Shown here: in pieces, positions 2,221-9,323 of the stretch
Layout of the letters: each line of letters starts with the position of its first letter
How positions within the stretch are numbered: the first letter of the stretch is position 1
IMG/VR virus record: IMGVR_UViG_3300022223_000281
Coordinates: 1 to 26,975 of that record
DNA: 26,975 bases
Origin: a virus
Reading direction: 5' to 3' (one strand)
Position numbers and translations under genes: made by a program
The notes under the pieces: model-generated
Told to the model about the DNA's origin: nothing
The model's database searches: none
What the model saw: only the letters and a program-made list of their open reading frames with translations

Positions 2221-2243
2221 AAGGTCTCACCTCCAAACTATGT

Positions 2244-2296
2244 CACTTCAAAAGTTTAAGTGATTTCTGGCATCAGCAAAGCGATTATTCGCTTTG
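2244..2296. promoter_or_regulatory. Two inverted repeats between regulator gene and 80-residue gene
   Basis: CAAAGCG at 2277-2283 and CGCTTTG at 2290-2296 form perfect 7-bp arms around a 6-nt loop. CACTT at 2244-2248 and AAGTG at 2258-2262 form a second, shorter repeat. The pair lies 47-100 nt past the stop of the minus-strand winged-helix gene and just upstream of the TTG start at 2220. It could be an operator for the neighbouring winged-helix protein, or a hairpin ending its transcript. There is no T-tract to prove a terminator. Confidence 0.4.
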
Positions 2297-2342
2297 TAGA
2301 CGTCTGCAAAGTGACTATCAAGATTGAAGGATGTTGTGGGTT

Positions 2343-2732
2343 CTATTGTTCCAGATATCTGAAAGCCTCTAGGGCACTGATGATTCGATGGTACTCTGCT
2401 TTTCTGATGAACTTGTCTAGGTTCATTTGGTCTAAAGCAACGGCGAGTTCTGCTCTCGGCGTTAGTTGATAGAGTGCAGTTTCGGATCCTGGTCTTGTTT
2501 TTCTTTCGCCTACTTTCATGAGGTAGTCTATTTGTTGGAGTGCCTTCACTCTTCGGATTAAAACTGAATACCTGATGTGTGCCATGTCTTTTCGTTTTTT
2601 AAATTGTCTAAAGACGTCCCATGTTGTTTGCGGGCTTTTGAGGGCAAGGATGTGGAATATAGCCCTGTTGAGCTTTGCTTCTTTGCCTTTGAAGACTGAG
2701 ATTCTTCCGCGTGTCCTCTTTCTCTTCTCCAC
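2343..2732 (-). CDS. Winged-helix DNA-binding protein, probable transcription regulator
   Basis: A 129-residue basic protein. After a charged N-terminus (KRKRTRGR), residues about 22-90 read as a winged helix: an alpha-rich start (NRAIFHILALKSPQTTWDVFRQF), a recognition region (YSVLIRRVKALQQIDYLMKVG) and a wing ending ALYQLTPRAELA. Such proteins commonly regulate archaeal virus genes. The start is GTG at 2732 with GGTGAG 8 nt upstream. It is divergent from the ATPase gene at 3104 and faces it across a 371-nt control region, so it may repress its own and the ATPase promoter (inferred). Overlapping frames in the same stretch lack a ribosome binding site or domain logic. Confidence 0.78.
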   Translation of the reverse strand: MEKRKRTRGRISVFKGKEAKLNRAIFHILALKSPQTTWDVFRQFKKRKDMAHIRYSVLIRRVKALQQIDYLMKVGERKTRPGSETALYQLTPRAELAVALDQMNLDKFIRKAEYHRIISALEAFRYLEQ

Positions 2733-3103
2733 AAGCCATTCTCACCGTGGCCCGTTAACACAACGTATGCGTAGAAGTGGCTATTCGCCTTTTTACACAG
2801 GTTCTTGTATCGCAAAACCCTCGTGAAAATACAGCCTATCATTCGATGACCGCTCGCAAAATTTTCTCTGAGACCATATTTAAACAGAAAACAAAACTTC
2901 ATGTAAAAAACAGAGTGAACACCCCACCTGTCAGCCTAATTTTACGACGGTGCATTTTTCACCAGAACAATTTTACGAAGGCCAGAGTTTGCTTATATAT
3001 ACATGCATTCTCCAAAACTTTAAACTAAGACCAGAACTAGAACTCATAATGGAAAAGACCGAAGGACACCACTATAAAGGATATATCTGGTTAGGAAACA
3101 AAA
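2733..3103. promoter_or_regulatory. Divergent regulatory region with TATA boxes and direct-repeat operators
   Basis: This is the longest gene-free stretch, between the minus-strand regulator and the plus-strand ATPase. Towards the regulator, TTTAAATATGG (minus, 2885-2875) is a good archaeal TATA box with a long leader. Towards the ATPase, TTATATATA (2993-3001) and TATAAAGGATATAT (3073-3086) are two candidate TATA boxes; the second lies about 27 nt before the ATG and would give a leaderless transcript. Two direct copies of AATTTTACGA-x-GG (2938-2950 and 2969-2981), spaced 31 bp or three helical turns, sit just upstream of the first plus-strand TATA box. A 22-codon frame (3049-3117) overlaps the ATPase start and could be a leader peptide, but it lacks a ribosome binding site. 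Confidence 0.55.
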
Positions 3104-3952
3104 ATGAGAAAGTATGAAGCGACATACGATCAATATGGTGAAGAAGTTACCTACACTGAGATACATACATGCCCTAAAAGAGACTTTCCCATAAAAATGA
3201 ACTGGTTCAACCCCGACGAAGCTATGAAAACAGGAACTTTCACATGTGGCTCTTCAGGGAGCGGAAAAACGGTCTTAAACTTCCACTTTGCCGATATGCT
3301 CATGGAAAAAGGCGTGATAGTCTACGTACTTGATCCAAGCCAAGCGTGGCAGAAAGGTTCAAGCGTACCCAATGTACGTCGCGTTGGCTATCCTTCAAAA
3401 GTCACGTTCCCAAACGGAAACTCGCTGGATGGAAAAACACTAGTCAAAAACGGAACAATATTCGACATATCATTCCTCACCTATCCGCAACGAGTAGACT
3501 TCACCGAAACAATCTGCAAGTGGATACTTGATGATCGAAAAAAATTGGCGAAGCCACCACCGACATTCGTGTTCTTTGAAGAATGTCAACTCGTTTTTTA
3601 TCAAGGCTCGATGCGAAGCCTCAAAAGACACAGCAATGCAGTAGAATTGGTGACGAATGGAAGAAACTTCAAGGTGAGATACGGCGCAATCACGCAGTTC
3701 GCTTCAATGGTTGATAAACTTCTCCTCAAGGTCACGCGCCAACGCTATCTAGGATACACGAGTGAGCCAAATGACGTAGAGTATCTCGAAGACATAATAG
3801 GAAAAGAAATGGCGAAAGAATTACCAATCTTAGAAGTCGGAGAATTCCTATATTCTTATCCAAGACGAGAACACAAACACACGCAAAGAATCAAGGTTCC
3901 GATGTTCCATAGAGAAAGCCCGAATATTAAGATTTTTCGACAAAACGGTTAG
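3104..3952 (+). CDS. HerA/FtsK-superfamily P-loop ATPase
   Basis: A 282-residue protein. Walker A is GSSGSGKT at residues 49-56, a Walker B-like run FVFFEEC is at 155-161, a Gln sensor is in AITQFAS (about 198), and nearby arginines (R187, R192) suit an arginine-finger role. The order matches HerA/FtsK-type DNA pumps. It is much shorter than cellular HerA and lacks the N-terminal HAS barrel. Such ATPases package DNA in tailless archaeal viruses or act in conjugation, DNA processing or defence. A separate terminase exists here, so packaging is not the obvious role. It is the only plus-strand gene and has its own promoter region. The ATG is preceded by AGGA at 7 nt. The next gene is convergent. 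The superfamily is clear; the specific job is unknown. Confidence 0.85.
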   Translation: MRKYEATYDQYGEEVTYTEIHTCPKRDFPIKMNWFNPDEAMKTGTFTCGSSGSGKTVLNFHFADMLMEKGVIVYVLDPSQAWQKGSSVPNVRRVGYPSKVTFPNGNSLDGKTLVKNGTIFDISFLTYPQRVDFTETICKWILDDRKKLAKPPPTFVFFEECQLVFYQGSMRSLKRHSNAVELVTNGRNFKVRYGAITQFASMVDKLLLKVTRQRYLGYTSEPNDVEYLEDIIGKEMAKELPILEVGEFLYSYPRREHKHTQRIKVPMFHRESPNIKIFRQNG

Positions 3953-4087
3953 ATAATGCCTTAATTCACGAAAATATGCATGCAGAACAGTGGAGGAGGC
4001 CACTAAGCTGATATAGGCTGGATTCCAGTATGTTACTGAGATGGATGGAGCCAGAATCTTTAGAAAGAGAAAATGAAAGAGCATGAA

Positions 4088-4567
4088 CTAACCCAGTATA
4101 TTTACTTTTAGAAAGGCTATCAAGGCTACCACATCCACTACCATGAAAAATAGAATGACACCAGGCCAGATCCATTTTCTCATTTCAAACCATGGTTTTC
4201 CTTCCAGTTGTTCTTTATGCATCTTTTCAGTCACAAAGCCTTTTCTTCTGAACTTCTCTATGATTTCATTCATGGTTTTCCGTTCTATATCGTTAACAAT
4301 TAAGGTCGAGCAGTGTAGGTAAAGTAAGCATGATAGCATGAAGAAAATAAATAGGAAAAGGGCGATTCCAATCGGAAAAAGATCTGCTTCAGGTTGAAAA
4401 CACCCCAGAATAATGAGAAATGAAACGGAAATCACTATGGAATCGGCCAGATACATTCTATTGTTTCTCTCTAACATTCCTTTCCTCATTAACTCATATT
4501 CTAAGCGTAGATTCGCCTTTTCATCTTCCTCTGTGACTCTCAGAAATTCTCTGGTTTCTTCAGACAA
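4088..4567 (-). CDS. Three-helix membrane protein of unknown function
   Basis: A 159-residue protein with an acidic, charged N-terminal 40 residues, then predicted transmembrane segments at about 41-57, 64-86 and 133-154, with a charged cytoplasmic-looking loop between the second and third. No family is recognised. The start is TTG at 4567 with AAGGAG about 9 nt upstream. It lies downstream of the nuclease-methyltransferase pair on the same strand after a 230-nt gap with its own palindrome, and is convergent with the ATPase gene. Membrane proteins in such virus cargo regions often act in superinfection exclusion or defence, but nothing in the sequence proves this. Confidence 0.72.
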   Translation of the reverse strand: MSEETREFLRVTEEDEKANLRLEYELMRKGMLERNNRMYLADSIVISVSFLIILGCFQPEADLFPIGIALFLFIFFMLSCLLYLHCSTLIVNDIERKTMNEIIEKFRRKGFVTEKMHKEQLEGKPWFEMRKWIWPGVILFFMVVDVVALIAFLKVNILG

Positions 4568-4690
4568 TTCTCATACTCCTTTCTCTATAGAAAATATGGA
4601 ATGCGTTCTCTATTAGTGTTTAGATGATAGATTCTTCAACGAGATTGCAATATGTGTCTTACGCTCAAATCGATTAATTCAAGAAATTCG

Positions 4691-4704
4691 ATTGCGCACG
4701 CAAT
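4691..4704. promoter_or_regulatory. Palindrome ATTGCG-CA-CGCAAT, possible operator
   Basis: A perfect 6-bp inverted repeat with a 2-nt centre lies in the 230-nt gap (4568-4797) upstream of the minus-strand membrane protein gene. A further near-repeat (AATCGATT, then ATTCGATT) lies just beside it at 4667-4692. The gap is AT-rich with no convincing reading frame. A dimeric repressor site is the simplest reading; no protein is linked to it by evidence. Confidence 0.35.
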
Positions 4705-4797
4705 TAACATCTACCTCTCTTTTACGGTTTACTAGGGAAATCTATTCATAGCATATTTTGAGCCTATACTGAACCCAGGAGGACCAAATCTGAAGGA

Positions 4798-7104
4798 CTA
4801 TACTTCTATGGCTTCCCCCGTAATGGTGGGGTCTTTCGAGAGAAGGCCATAAAGAATATTCAAGTCCACATCCAAACCTAGAATCTCATTGAACTTGTCG
4901 TCGATTTTTCTCCTCACTCTTGGCTCTCTGAACTCTTTAGGTAGAGGTCGTAGCTCGTCATTACGTATGTGAGAGTACAGATCCAGTAACTCCTTCACTT
5001 GTTTCTCGCTCAGCTTTCCAATGTCCAGTACAGGTAGTTTCCATAGAGGGGTCTTCTTGAATTTAATCCACGGTCCACGGGTTACTTCACTGAGCGATAG
5101 GAGATGTAGGGTTCCGTAAGTTGAGTTTATCCAAAGGGTCATTATTTTTGCTGTTTCGTCGCTGGTCAGTGTATAGCCTTTTGCTTTCACCTTCTTAGTT
5201 TGAACAGGCCACCAGACGTTCGATAAGACATTTTGTTTCGAGAGGATTGCAAGAACCCTGTAAGTAGGAAGCCACGCCCGCTCAACGATTAGCAGGTTGC
5301 CGCTCCGTTTCCAAAGCGCTCTGGCCATCTTGGCATTTTTTGGTTCTAGGGAAGCATTTGGATTTTGTTCTATGCACCTGACTTTCTTGGTTTCATGGTT
5401 CCAAAATGACTGATAAGGCTCTTGAGACCTGTAGGTTACTTTCCGAAAGGCCGAGTGAACCTGTCTCACGTCGGGTCCTATCTCCTCTGCAAAGGTGTCA
5501 AATGTGGTTAGGGGAATCCTGTTGACTATTCCTTGGGTGGGAAGGTAAAGGGTTCCTTTTCGAATAAGTGTCGTTATCCTATTTAACTCGGCCTGGGCGA
5601 AAAGGTTGTAGTGCCCAAATGCCTCTTCCACCAACCGGGTCGAGTAAACATCAGCGACTTTTTTCCCGTGAAGTTTGACGGAGAATGAAGAGGCGTTCGC
5701 GTTTTCTATGTCAGCAGGAGCAACGGCTCCATACAGTTCTGTCAATTGAGAACATATATAGACTGATTCTATCTCGTTTTCCGGCTTCCTGAACAAATTT
5801 ACAAAAATAGTGTAGCCACTATTTTCATCAACGGAGCGCTTCCGAGCCACTAAGAGTACCTCGCTTAGACTGGTATTTTCGCTGAAGTTCCAGTCGTTAG
5901 GACCTTGGAAGCTAGAGATGATGTATTCAAGGTGGTATTTTTCTAGGAAGAGTTCTCTGATCTTTGTCCAAGAGACGCCGGCAAGCACAGCCTTTGGCAG
6001 GACTAGGGCCAATCGTCCGCCTGCCGCAAGGTATTGGTCGCTTAGATGGACGAAGACGGCACCTAAACCTGCCTGCCCTATCCCTGTTAGTTTCTTTTCT
6101 TTAAGAAGACTGGAGAGAACCTTTTGCAGCTCTTTTCTCTCCTTTGATGGTAAATCGCCAAAGAGAAGGTTGCCTCCAACGCTTCTGGTGAATGGGGGGT
6201 TCATTATACACATGTGGAAGTTCGGCACCTTCTCTCCCTCTGCTACTTTTCTTTGACTCACGCCCACTCTCTCCGCTCCGACGCCTCCACATTGGAGCTT
6301 AACAGGTGAGATGTCCGGTGACTTGAGGAAGTCTGGACTACCTAGAAACACGTTTTTGTCGAATTTCCCTAGTTTTAAGGCGTATATTCGAGAGAGGTCA
6401 ACGGAAGTGGAAGGGTTATGGAGAGACAAGGTGGTCATAGCCAAGTGTGTTGCGTGTTGAAGGACATCAAAGCCCCAAAGCCCTTCCTCGATCATGTATT
6501 CGTGCAAGCTTCCCACATTGGGCTCTTCCGCTCTTATTCGATGTCGAGCCTCCAACTCCTTGTACAATGCCAAAAGCAGAGTCCCAGATCCACACGCAAA
6601 ATCTACCGCTTTCAATGGCTCCTCTCCATATTTTGGGGGGCTTTCCGTAACTTTGAGCGGGGAGGGAAGCGTGACCAAGAGCCTAGCCAGAAGACATGCT
6701 GCAGGGACGGACGTGTAGTATGTGGCGTAGTACTTGACTAGTTTGCCTAGAAGTAGTTGATGATACACCCTTCCCATTAAGTCATGTTTTAGTAGTGCGT
6801 GTGAAGAAGCAATGTCATAGGCTACGTCAAGTAATCGGCGCAGCTCCCGGTTAAGCATGGAAGAAGCTGGGAGGTGCCTAAGAATTTTAAGAGCCACTTC
6901 AAAGACGGGTTCGTAATCTATCTTTAGTATCTTTACCCATTCATCCTCGAGGGCTTTTTTAATGTTGCTTTGCGCTCTAATCTGAGATAATGTTTCTATT
7001 TTCGCCTTCAGGTTCGCCAGTACCTCATGAAAAATCATAGCGTCAGTTAGAATTAGCCCAGCTGTCGCCAACACCTTTAAGTCTTCTTGCGAAGCTTTGG
7101 GCAT
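4798..7104 (-). CDS. N6-adenine DNA methyltransferase (type I/IIG-like)
   Basis: A 768-residue protein. An alpha-helical N-terminal region (about 1-130, ending GRVYHQLLLGKLVKYYATYY) is followed by the SAM-binding motif VDFACGSGTLL (168-178) and the catalytic motif IV NPPF (302-305), in the order seen in N6-adenine methyltransferases of type I and IIG systems. The C-terminal half (about 400-768) is long enough for target recognition, but no separate specificity subunit is nearby. The ATG at 7104 has GAGGAG 9 nt upstream and lies 13 nt after the nuclease-like gene, so the two are cotranslated as a unit. It may protect viral DNA or form a restriction-modification pair with its neighbour. No helicase (HsdR-like) domain is present. 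The methyltransferase call is firm; the system type is inferred. Confidence 0.9.
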   Translation of the reverse strand: MPKASQEDLKVLATAGLILTDAMIFHEVLANLKAKIETLSQIRAQSNIKKALEDEWVKILKIDYEPVFEVALKILRHLPASSMLNRELRRLLDVAYDIASSHALLKHDLMGRVYHQLLLGKLVKYYATYYTSVPAACLLARLLVTLPSPLKVTESPPKYGEEPLKAVDFACGSGTLLLALYKELEARHRIRAEEPNVGSLHEYMIEEGLWGFDVLQHATHLAMTTLSLHNPSTSVDLSRIYALKLGKFDKNVFLGSPDFLKSPDISPVKLQCGGVGAERVGVSQRKVAEGEKVPNFHMCIMNPPFTRSVGGNLLFGDLPSKERKELQKVLSSLLKEKKLTGIGQAGLGAVFVHLSDQYLAAGGRLALVLPKAVLAGVSWTKIRELFLEKYHLEYIISSFQGPNDWNFSENTSLSEVLLVARKRSVDENSGYTIFVNLFRKPENEIESVYICSQLTELYGAVAPADIENANASSFSVKLHGKKVADVYSTRLVEEAFGHYNLFAQAELNRITTLIRKGTLYLPTQGIVNRIPLTTFDTFAEEIGPDVRQVHSAFRKVTYRSQEPYQSFWNHETKKVRCIEQNPNASLEPKNAKMARALWKRSGNLLIVERAWLPTYRVLAILSKQNVLSNVWWPVQTKKVKAKGYTLTSDETAKIMTLWINSTYGTLHLLSLSEVTRGPWIKFKKTPLWKLPVLDIGKLSEKQVKELLDLYSHIRNDELRPLPKEFREPRVRRKIDDKFNEILGLDVDLNILYGLLSKDPTITGEAIEV

Positions 7105-7117
7105 AATCGGGTTCTCC

Positions 7118-7711
7118 TCACCCTTTTCCTCTCAAATCCAGAGCTTCTTTAAGTCGTTGGATGTTAATATTGCCCAATGAGATTTTTCTGGCAAAAGCGT
7201 GGACGCGGGCGTCAAGTTTTTTGACGACTGGGCCCAGCACATCTTCCCTTACTGCCTGCTCGTATACTGTCATTAGATATGTGACGAGGTCTTGGAAGTC
7301 TACATCCTCTTGGAAGCTTTTCGGCTTAGTTTCTAGGCCCTCAATCCACTTCTCAAGACCCACTCGATCCGCAAAGGTCATAGATGCCACGTTAAATCGC
7401 CCTCTGACAAGCGCTTCCTTCACATCTTTCTGAGTAGCTCCCAAAGTTCTGATGCTAACTTGCGCATATTCCACCATTACGCAAATATCGCACAAGCCCT
7501 CGTCCAATCTGCCCTCGGCCTGTCTTAGAAGCTCATTCCGCTTTCCCGGCTTCTTTCCTTCCAGGATAATCCTGACGCCATTCACGTCGAGCAGGACATC
7601 AGGCCTCTTCTTCAAGACGACCTCGCCTAAAGCCTTCAATCCACGCTCGGCAAAGAGTTCAGCTAAAGTGACGTTTAGCGATTCTTCTCTTACCTTAGAA
7701 GACCAAGGCAC
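7118..7711 (-). CDS. PD-(D/E)XK nuclease-like protein, partner of the DNA methyltransferase
   Basis: A 197-residue protein. PD at 37-38 (KKRPDVLLDVNG) is followed by ILEGKK with Glu51 and Lys53, giving a PD-x12-E-x-K signature inside a strand-turn-strand pattern typical of the PD-(D/E)XK fold. The C-terminal 100 residues are helical. It is the first gene of a two-gene operon with the methyltransferase. The start is GTG at 7711 with GGAGG 7 nt upstream, and a TATA-rich promoter lies just before it. It may be the restriction subunit or a DNA-recognition partner; the fold is inferred from one motif only. It is smaller than type I HsdR and has no ATPase motifs. Confidence 0.65.
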   Translation of the reverse strand: MPWSSKVREESLNVTLAELFAERGLKALGEVVLKKRPDVLLDVNGVRIILEGKKPGKRNELLRQAEGRLDEGLCDICVMVEYAQVSIRTLGATQKDVKEALVRGRFNVASMTFADRVGLEKWIEGLETKPKSFQEDVDFQDLVTYLMTVYEQAVREDVLGPVVKKLDARVHAFARKISLGNINIQRLKEALDLRGKG

Positions 7712-7740
7712 GAGGCTTCCTCCGTTGTATTCTTCTCACA

Positions 7741-7755
7741 CCTTTAAATATATAA
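7741..7755 (-). promoter_or_regulatory. TATA-type promoter of the nuclease-methyltransferase operon
   Basis: On the minus strand TTATATATTTAAAGG is a strong archaeal TATA-like element 30-44 nt upstream of the GTG start at 7711. A start site about 25 nt downstream would leave a very short leader beginning near the GGAGG ribosome binding site (7719-7723). Between this element and the stop of the ATPase-acetyltransferase gene lies TCTCCTTTAGGAGA (7813-7826), a small hairpin that could end the virion transcript. Confidence 0.6.
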
Positions 7756-7862
7756 TTATGTCATGCAATCAAGAGCGTGAAGTTTCATATGCACCTAGCA
7801 TCTGGTCTAGCGATTCTCCTTTAGGAGATCCTGAAACCTTTCTCATATTGCGCACACTTAAA

Positions 7863-9323
7863 TCAGAGATCAGGGTTTTTCCAGAATAGGTAGACTTTTG
7901 TCTGGATGAGAAAGCTGAGGATTTTGATCATTCGCGCCAGTTTCTCTACGTCTGCACGGTCCACACAGTCGCAAAACTCGTTATGTTTCATGTAGGCGCG
8001 GCCGGTGGATGCTATGCGCTTTCGATAGACGCCTCCTGCCTTTGAGACGTGCTTGAAAACCGTTCTAACTTTTTTGATAAGGCCAGGGTCCTCTCTCATC
8101 CGGTGAATCGTATACTTGGTTGAGCCGAGCAACACTGGGTTAAACCCCAGACACCTCAGCTTCTCTACGCCTTCTAGGATCGCTGGTCGGGGCTTGCTTT
8201 CAGCGATTTTTGTCATTCCTGCGCGTTCGAAAAACGGATTGTACCGGGCCATAACTGCGGTTGTTTCCACGTAAGGCTTTCCAGCTAGAGGAAGCGTTTC
8301 ACGCACAAGCTTCACACCAAGCCCAATCGTACGATATTTCGGATGAACTACAACCCGAGCAATACATGTTAAAACTTGATTCACTTCATAAATCGTTAAC
8401 ACTCTCCCAAAAGCCTTTTTTCTCCCAGCCGTACGCACCGCTGGAGACCTGTAAACAATAACCCCGCAGAGCTCATCGCCACGTTTCAAAACAAAGATTT
8501 TCTGAGGGCACACAAGTCTTCGGCTGTCACGGTAATGGAAGCCAGCTAGCGTCTCATAGTCTTCGCGTGTGCCCTCTTCTATCCACATTTCTTTGACAAG
8601 TGTGCATTGTCGACCCCCTGGGGGTCGAGGAAAATACTTTACTTGGATCTCCTTGCCAAACCGTTTATGAATGTGCACTGTAGGCCTGAGATTCTCAAAT
8701 AAGTCGGTGTGCGTTGTAGCAGCAACAACAGCCTTACCCTCTTTCCGAGCTAGTTTCTGAACGTTGAAAGCCACTATTTTGGCGGTGTCACGGTCCAAGG
8801 TGCTGCAGAACTCGTCCGCGATCCACCATTGTTTATCAGACTCTAACAATTTTGCTATTTTGTAGCGGTATTTCTGGCCGTCGCTAAGCTCCCGAAAACG
8901 CCTAATAAAAAGAAAGGCATCATTCAAACCAGCTCTGCTCAGAAGCTCCAAACCCCCGCTTAAGTCTTTGCCAATAGTATCGATTAACGGCTTCTCGGGG
9001 TCAGGGTGGATATCCTCCATGTCTATTGCTTCGCTGCCCAAATCTTGCTCTATGGCTTTTAAGAGGACAGACTTGCCGCTTCCAGAATCGCCGGTGATAT
9101 ATACAATGTCCTTAGGTCCTATCTTCAACTCGACGTTATCATAAATCACGAATTTGCGATGTTCATCTACGCCTAAACCGAAGGCTTCAGCCACGCCAAT
9201 CGTTCTCGGCGTAATCTCTGTGGCGGTTTCATAAGCGATGTTGAAAACAAACTTTCCAGCTTTCCGGTCGTAACGTCTACGGAACTTTTGAATCTGGAAA
9301 AACTCTCGCTTGCGTCTTGTCAT
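7863..9323 (-). CDS. ABC-type ATPase fused to a GNAT acetyltransferase domain
   Basis: A 486-residue two-domain protein. The N-terminal domain has Walker A GDSGSGKS (78-85), an ABC signature variant LSDGQ (146-150), Walker B WWIADE (166-171) followed by the D-loop STLDRDT, and a His in ATTHTDL (about 205). It lacks membrane segments, so it is not a transporter subunit. Residues about 230-400 look like a GNAT acetyltransferase, with the acetyl-CoA loop in HPKYRTIGLGVKLV and PFFERAGM near the end. The gene overlaps the terminase stop by ATGA, so it is the last gene of the virion operon. Fusions of this kind beside terminase genes are known to me from tailed-virus genomes, without an established function. 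It may act in packaging, DNA handling or host modification. Confidence 0.85.
   Translation of the reverse strand: MTRRKREFFQIQKFRRRYDRKAGKFVFNIAYETATEITPRTIGVAEAFGLGVDEHRKFVIYDNVELKIGPKDIVYITGDSGSGKSVLLKAIEQDLGSEAIDMEDIHPDPEKPLIDTIGKDLSGGLELLSRAGLNDAFLFIRRFRELSDGQKYRYKIAKLLESDKQWWIADEFCSTLDRDTAKIVAFNVQKLARKEGKAVVAATTHTDLFENLRPTVHIHKRFGKEIQVKYFPRPPGGRQCTLVKEMWIEEGTREDYETLAGFHYRDSRRLVCPQKIFVLKRGDELCGVIVYRSPAVRTAGRKKAFGRVLTIYEVNQVLTCIARVVVHPKYRTIGLGVKLVRETLPLAGKPYVETTAVMARYNPFFERAGMTKIAESKPRPAILEGVEKLRCLGFNPVLLGSTKYTIHRMREDPGLIKKVRTVFKHVSKAGGVYRKRIASTGRAYMKHNEFCDCVDRADVEKLARMIKILSFLIQTKVYLFWKNPDL

Follow-up and report, generated by a model that had tools for sequence, protein, structure and literature searches.

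The 26,975-base window, which is the whole stretch of DNA analysed, contains a small nuclease gene and an N6-adenine methyltransferase (MTase) gene that, judging by their homologues, correspond to a single type IIG-like enzyme divided in two inside its helical connector. This follows from the existence of fused proteins that hold both parts and from a split-nuclease profile that recognises the fused N-termini. With a probability of roughly 80%, the pair is a restriction-modification (R-M) enzyme of the type IIG lineage, its chain split in the helical connector, which the virus carries as cargo against rival DNA, an activity that we infer from homology.

The window is virus record IMGVR_UViG_3300022223_000281 (IMG/VR). 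It encodes a tyrosine integrase, a terminase large subunit (TerL), and major capsid and minor tail genes, and represents an archaeal tailed virus or provirus. No terminal repeat of 15-60 bases was found in the 26,975-base record, and the record is probably incomplete. Both genes of the pair lie on the minus strand. The gene of the 197-residue nuclease (R subunit) spans positions 7118-7711 and has a GTG start, and that of the 768-residue MTase (M~S subunit) spans 4798-7104 and has an ATG start. These open reading frames (ORFs), their strands and their coordinates had been given correctly in a preliminary description of the DNA, which also stated that the nuclease is not fused to the MTase. The two ORFs are indeed separate and in different frames, 13 nt apart on the minus strand (7105-7117), at the site of the break relative to the fused form. 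Both can be taken to be real genes, since pairs with 58-61% amino acid identity are found in independent genomes and the differences between them are biased towards third codon positions. Inspection of the upstream region (7712-7862, minus strand) revealed, ahead of the GTG, a TATA-like stretch rich in AT (7743-7755) and a CCTCC/GGAGG that resembles a Shine-Dalgarno sequence (GGAGG at 7719-7723), so a putative promoter belonging to the operon itself is plausible. A 159-residue ORF with three hydrophobic stretches (4088-4567), 230 nt beyond the MTase gene, had been counted as part of the module. It has no relative in any locus compared and does not accompany the split pairs of L008, L010 and L064-L066, and on these grounds the membrane gene was rejected as a third component.

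The 197-residue protein has the residues D38-x12-E51-x-K53 within RPDVLLDVNGVRIILEGKK, and its motif reads RPD38VLLDVNGVRIILE51GK53K. The predicted order of its elements (H9-24, E31-34, E40-43, E46-53, H58-70, E76-81) fits a PD-(D/E)XK core. The protein is homologous to the N-terminal part of the fused relatives, of which the split-nuclease profile recognises ~190 residues. D38 and E51 are invariant across 18 aligned nucleases. The protein is probably a PD-(D/E)XK-type nuclease with a C-terminal helical tail that matches the beginning of the helical connector in type IIG enzymes. Its model had no Foldseek match at E<=0.001 in the PDB; the top matches were family II pyrophosphatases, followed by Hjc, RecU and I-Ssp6803I, and being weak and mixed they were set aside as proof of a nuclease fold. 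A profile match to AF1548 (1y88) was marginal (E=0.0077), no family match was found in Pfam, NCBIfam or PADLOC, and the nuclease sequence by itself had no match in the PDB. Because the fold search gave nothing significant, the argument for a PD-(D/E)XK fold comes mainly from residue conservation and from the homologues in which this domain is fused. A protein of this size cannot accommodate a recognition domain as well and should therefore be directed to its targets by the MTase, unlike the nucleases of ordinary type II pairs.

The 768-residue protein matched Pfam N6_Mtase above the curated cut-off (E=4.5e-8) and Eco57I below it (E=1.1e-4). With the ORFs and the catalytic motif of the nuclease, the N6_Mtase match bears out the earlier proposal of a compact nuclease and N6-MTase pair. 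The motifs are in gamma-class order (the SAM motif DFACGSGTLL, then the catalytic NPPF), and ~330 residues lie past the catalytic core. The layout comprises N-terminal helices (1-119), a catalytic core (~160-440), a target-recognition-like region (~440-690) and terminal helices. The AlphaFold model (pTM 0.77) matched CamA, M.BseCI, BpuSI and BrxX at E<=1e-12 over ~690 columns or more, covering both the catalytic and the specificity regions. Since M~S enzymes are matched across both regions, the C-terminal part of the MTase is most likely the specificity module. The best structural matches are the monomeric M~S MTases CamA and M.BseCI, and we know of no partner nuclease gene of the R-subunit kind for either.

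The MTase is homologous over its full length to fused proteins. Searches of plasmids and phages with tblastn recovered relatives with both parts in one chain: a protein of ~950-1000 residues, composed of nuclease, helical connector, gamma-class MTase and C-terminal specificity region, is found in plasmids, haloviruses, phages and archaeal chromosomes, and fused forms are also present in Chloroflexota. For example, a Methanothermobacter plasmid encodes a fused relative of 956 residues. The proteins of Aminobacter MSH1 pUSP4 (WP_108610813, 947 aa) and Sulfuricystis pSTJ1 (WP_126447967, 971 aa) are 34% identical to the MTase over 97-99% of its length and have the nuclease domain at their N-terminus, but they are single chains on bacterial plasmids. 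Halorubrum and Haloferax viruses (HRTV-10 UBF19622, HSTV-4 and relatives) encode a 975-residue fused protein annotated as 'type IIG restriction modification enzyme', with 28% identity over the MTase (E=7e-33) and an N-terminal PD...EAK nuclease. Like the window pair it is carried by archaeal tailed viruses, but it is one chain and only ~16% identical in the nuclease region. Viral contigs searched directly with the nuclease and MTase sequences, or with a profile of four nucleases, gave no matches; the viral relatives were recovered with MTase profiles. Two fused groups lack the catalytic K, which is replaced by S in archaeal L024, L025, L045 and L047 and by E in L049-L052 and L004, and their nucleases may be altered or inactive. 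D and E are retained in both groups.

Eight intact or near-intact split pairs were detected. Apart from the window, these are found in Bathyarchaeota (L008), three further archaeal genomes of the same phylum (L020, L021, L022), Njordarchaeota (L009), Dehalococcoidia (L010) and a bacterial phage contig (L016). The preliminary description had relied on D38, E51 and K53; their equivalents are present in 8/8 split pairs, and K is replaced in the two fused groups named above, which are more distant. A maximum-likelihood analysis of 34 MTases united the split forms of archaea in one clade (n=6, SH-aLRT 100) and placed L010 and L016 apart from it among fused proteins. On this tree three changes between fused and split are required in total, of which at least two are forced by well-supported branches. 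The two genes overlap by 4 nt in L009, L016 and L021, are separated by a short gap in L008, L022 and the window, and overlap slightly more in L010 and L020; such 4-nt overlaps and close junctions imply that nuclease and MTase would be on one transcript. A survey of 398 genomes from the L008 phylum gave matches to the split-type nuclease (E about 1e-57 or better) solely where the split-type MTase is present too. The split is conserved and old.

Synonymous sites are saturated, and differences by codon position were used in place of dN/dS. In both genes the share of third positions is 0.61-0.69, against ~0.2 at second positions, and both are under purifying selection. Some chromosomal copies are decaying, and not every pair is active: in one archaeal genome (G375:C65; L027, L044, L087, L096) both genes of the split pair are broken by frameshifts or stops, and the copies in G058 and G343 contain stops. 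Decayed copies of this kind are as expected from the turnover of R-M systems. The codon data also bear on whether the MTase instead shields the viral genome from host restriction, with the small protein as an inactive or accessory remnant of a nuclease. Archaeal viruses often carry a lone MTase (PMC10848311, PMC8651126) and K53 was lost in some fused relatives; however, D38, E51 and K53 are intact in the window nuclease as well as in every split relative, constraint on the nuclease gene equals that on the MTase gene, and a separate nuclease gene is present in several independent loci. Self-protection is therefore an unlikely function of the pair.

Type IIG enzymes are defined by having R and M on a single polypeptide (PMC4081073, PMC3874165), and the type IIG organisations in Table 4 of PMC3874165 are R~M~S or R~M + S, without an R + M~S entry. 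The window pair has the type IIG order of parts (an N-terminal PD-(D/E)XK domain of ~200 residues, helical connector, gamma-MTase and C-terminal S module), as seen from its end-to-end homology with the fused proteins and the match of its model to BpuSI. Its cleavage domain and gamma-class MTase are not in a single chain: they are encoded by two ORFs in different frames, and are split in eight loci. The name that suits it best is two-subunit (R + M~S) type IIG variant: by descent and part order it is inside the lineage, and only its chain organisation sets it apart. The earlier view that the pair is neither standard type I nor type IIG was thus correct in that it is not type I and not a one-chain type IIG enzyme, but it missed the fused homologues, by which the pair is type IIG by descent. 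A type I system has an HsdR with an SF2 helicase motor and a separate HsdS. As the preliminary description had noted, neither is present beside the pair or among the window proteins searched, and 197 residues leave no room for a helicase; the S function itself is not missing, as it is predicted to reside in the C-terminal region of the MTase. Partner genes from the full sets of BREX (BrxZ/PglZ, BrxC etc.) and MADS (mad1-mad8) were likewise not recognised among the window proteins searched. Membership of type I, BREX and MADS was rejected.

It is very improbable that the MTase marks self on behalf of a modification-dependent defence system of several genes (MADS-, BREX- or DISARM-like), with the other genes as effectors. 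The MTase model resembles BrxX, and PADLOC gave weak matches to mad2, PglX and type I/II MTases, but the NCBIfam scores for mad2 (17.7) and PglX (19) compare with cut-offs of 720 and 900, and no further MADS, BREX or DISARM gene was found among the window proteins searched or among the recurring neighbours of split pairs, which were compared by length and N-terminus. Least credible of all is a degenerating remnant, a fused type IIG gene that was frameshifted and lost its function: decayed copies exist (G375) and the fused form is the commoner one, but the break point is identical and the start/stop junctions are clean in eight loci, both genes are under purifying selection and the split clade is supported. 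The split clade and the clean junctions also led to the rejection of a sequencing error or pseudogene.

The two-subunit type IIG reading can be compared with known enzymes. MmeI (type IIL/IIG) is composed of nuclease (1-155), spacer (156-300), MTase (301-620), target recognition domain (TRD, 621-825) and helices (826-919) (PMC4833311), and MmeI and BpuSI (type IIG) share with the pair the order of nuclease, helical spacer, gamma-MTase, TRD and helices (PMC4833311). The M~S model also matches BpuSI in structure. Unlike the pair, both MmeI and BpuSI are single chains, and sequence identity to them is negligible. On the MmeI plan, the break falls within the helical spacer: the nuclease retains helices 139-190 and the MTase opens with helices 3-119. 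The only precedent for a split type IIG enzyme found in the open-access literature is a proposal for Haloferax volcanii, where a PD-(D/E)XK fragment and an MTase~TRD protein (HVO_A0006/HVO_A0237) were suggested to form a split complex (PMC4389544); methylation by it was not detectable in later work (PMC5867850). There too nuclease fragment and MTase~TRD are on separate proteins, but the genes are 231 genes apart beside transposases and do not form an operon. R-M is known in archaeal tailed viruses (PMC8651126), and the known defence genes of archaeal tailed proviruses include R-M, DISARM, Dnd and pPIWI (PMC11705971). New here are the conservation of the split form and the fixed position of the cargo slot.

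Homology, the order of parts, catalytic residues, the conserved split and the cargo slot were established by the analysis; complex formation, cleavage, methylation, specificity and biological role are proposed as follows. With its C-terminal region the M~S subunit would bind a short asymmetric site, and it would methylate one adenine (N6) with AdoMet. The C-terminal helices of the nuclease would dock on the N-terminal helices of M~S, and the interface is likely formed by nuclease helices 139-190 and MTase helices 3-119. Two such complexes would then pair their two PD-(D/E)XK sites and, with no need for ATP, cleave DNA that lacks the modification, always equally far from the site. Provirus and host DNA would be marked as self, and other incoming viruses or plasmids would be destroyed. 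The pair could perhaps also act as an addiction module.

A wider proposal, which we put forward tentatively and at somewhat less than even odds, is that such pairs form an obligate two-subunit, ATP-free restriction class (R + M~S) that is conserved in archaea, Chloroflexota and phages and serves as interchangeable anti-competitor cargo of archaeal viruses; in it, a self-sufficient M~S would recruit a recognition-less nuclease. If so, DNA could be modified but not restricted as long as the R subunit is unbound. With a conserved R + M~S form, the empty cell in the table of type IIG organisations (PMC3874165 Table 4) is filled, and modification and restriction are separated at the level of genes. 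The split enzyme would also be a natural system for studying how the helical connector controls cleavage.

That the pair is virus-borne cargo, as suggested earlier, agrees with its location in a variable slot that relatives fill with other R-M or defence genes. In the window the slot spans 2221-7862, between a fused ABC-ATPase/GNAT gene (7863-9323) and a gene of 80 residues (1978-2220); in relatives the borders are constant and the content varies. TerL followed by the ABC-ATPase/GNAT protein is retained in related viruses (TerL identity 71-83%). A TerL relative is present in 63/78 further viral loci, most of which have the TerL-ABC/GNAT order, and flanks the ABC/GNAT gene in 22/30 loci from genomes of the L008 phylum. 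The ABC-ATPase/GNAT gene looks like a core gene of the virus group. It has 524 viral relatives and in most of them comes directly after the terminase large subunit. The 80-residue gene of the far border recurs in L082, L150, L218 and L220, with an integrase beyond it in L218. The slot between TerL-ABC/GNAT and the 80-residue gene plus integrase is a cargo hot spot in tailed viruses and proviruses of the L008 (Bathyarchaeota) phylum, a fixed site stocked with varied defence systems that is comparable to the hot spots of bacterial phages and satellites. L081 is a further slot locus in the hot-spot set.

Not every slot contains defence genes: R-M or defence genes were recognised in ~6 of the 21 viral slots visible over 3 kb or more, and in 4/19 genome slots. 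After the ABC/GNAT gene there is a D12 MTase with an HNH nuclease in L077/L153, an Argonaute in L082, an N4/N6 MTase with an AlwI-type endonuclease in L150 and a HEPN protein in L144. L215 contains a complete type I R-M system (TerL adjacency was checked) and L214 a type III R-M system with UvrD/PD-(D/E)XK. A SNF2/PLD helicase with a type IIG/DrmMI-like protein is found in L210, and an ORF pair similar to it by length and N-terminus in L211. In L163 (12581-15480) an m5C MTase, HhH-GPD and PLD proteins stand in a row, a trio that resembles an m5C R-M system with a mismatch-repair helper. The slot of L218 (993-5913) holds two large genes, which by their first residues only are like archaeal PEP carboxylase and P-type ATPase. 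Inside the window slot, on the opposite (plus) strand, positions 3104-3952 encode a P-loop ATPase with weak terminase-like PHROG similarity (2e-13). A distant relative of this ATPase (26% identity), which also matches a phosphoribosyltransferase domain, is encoded in the slot of L144.
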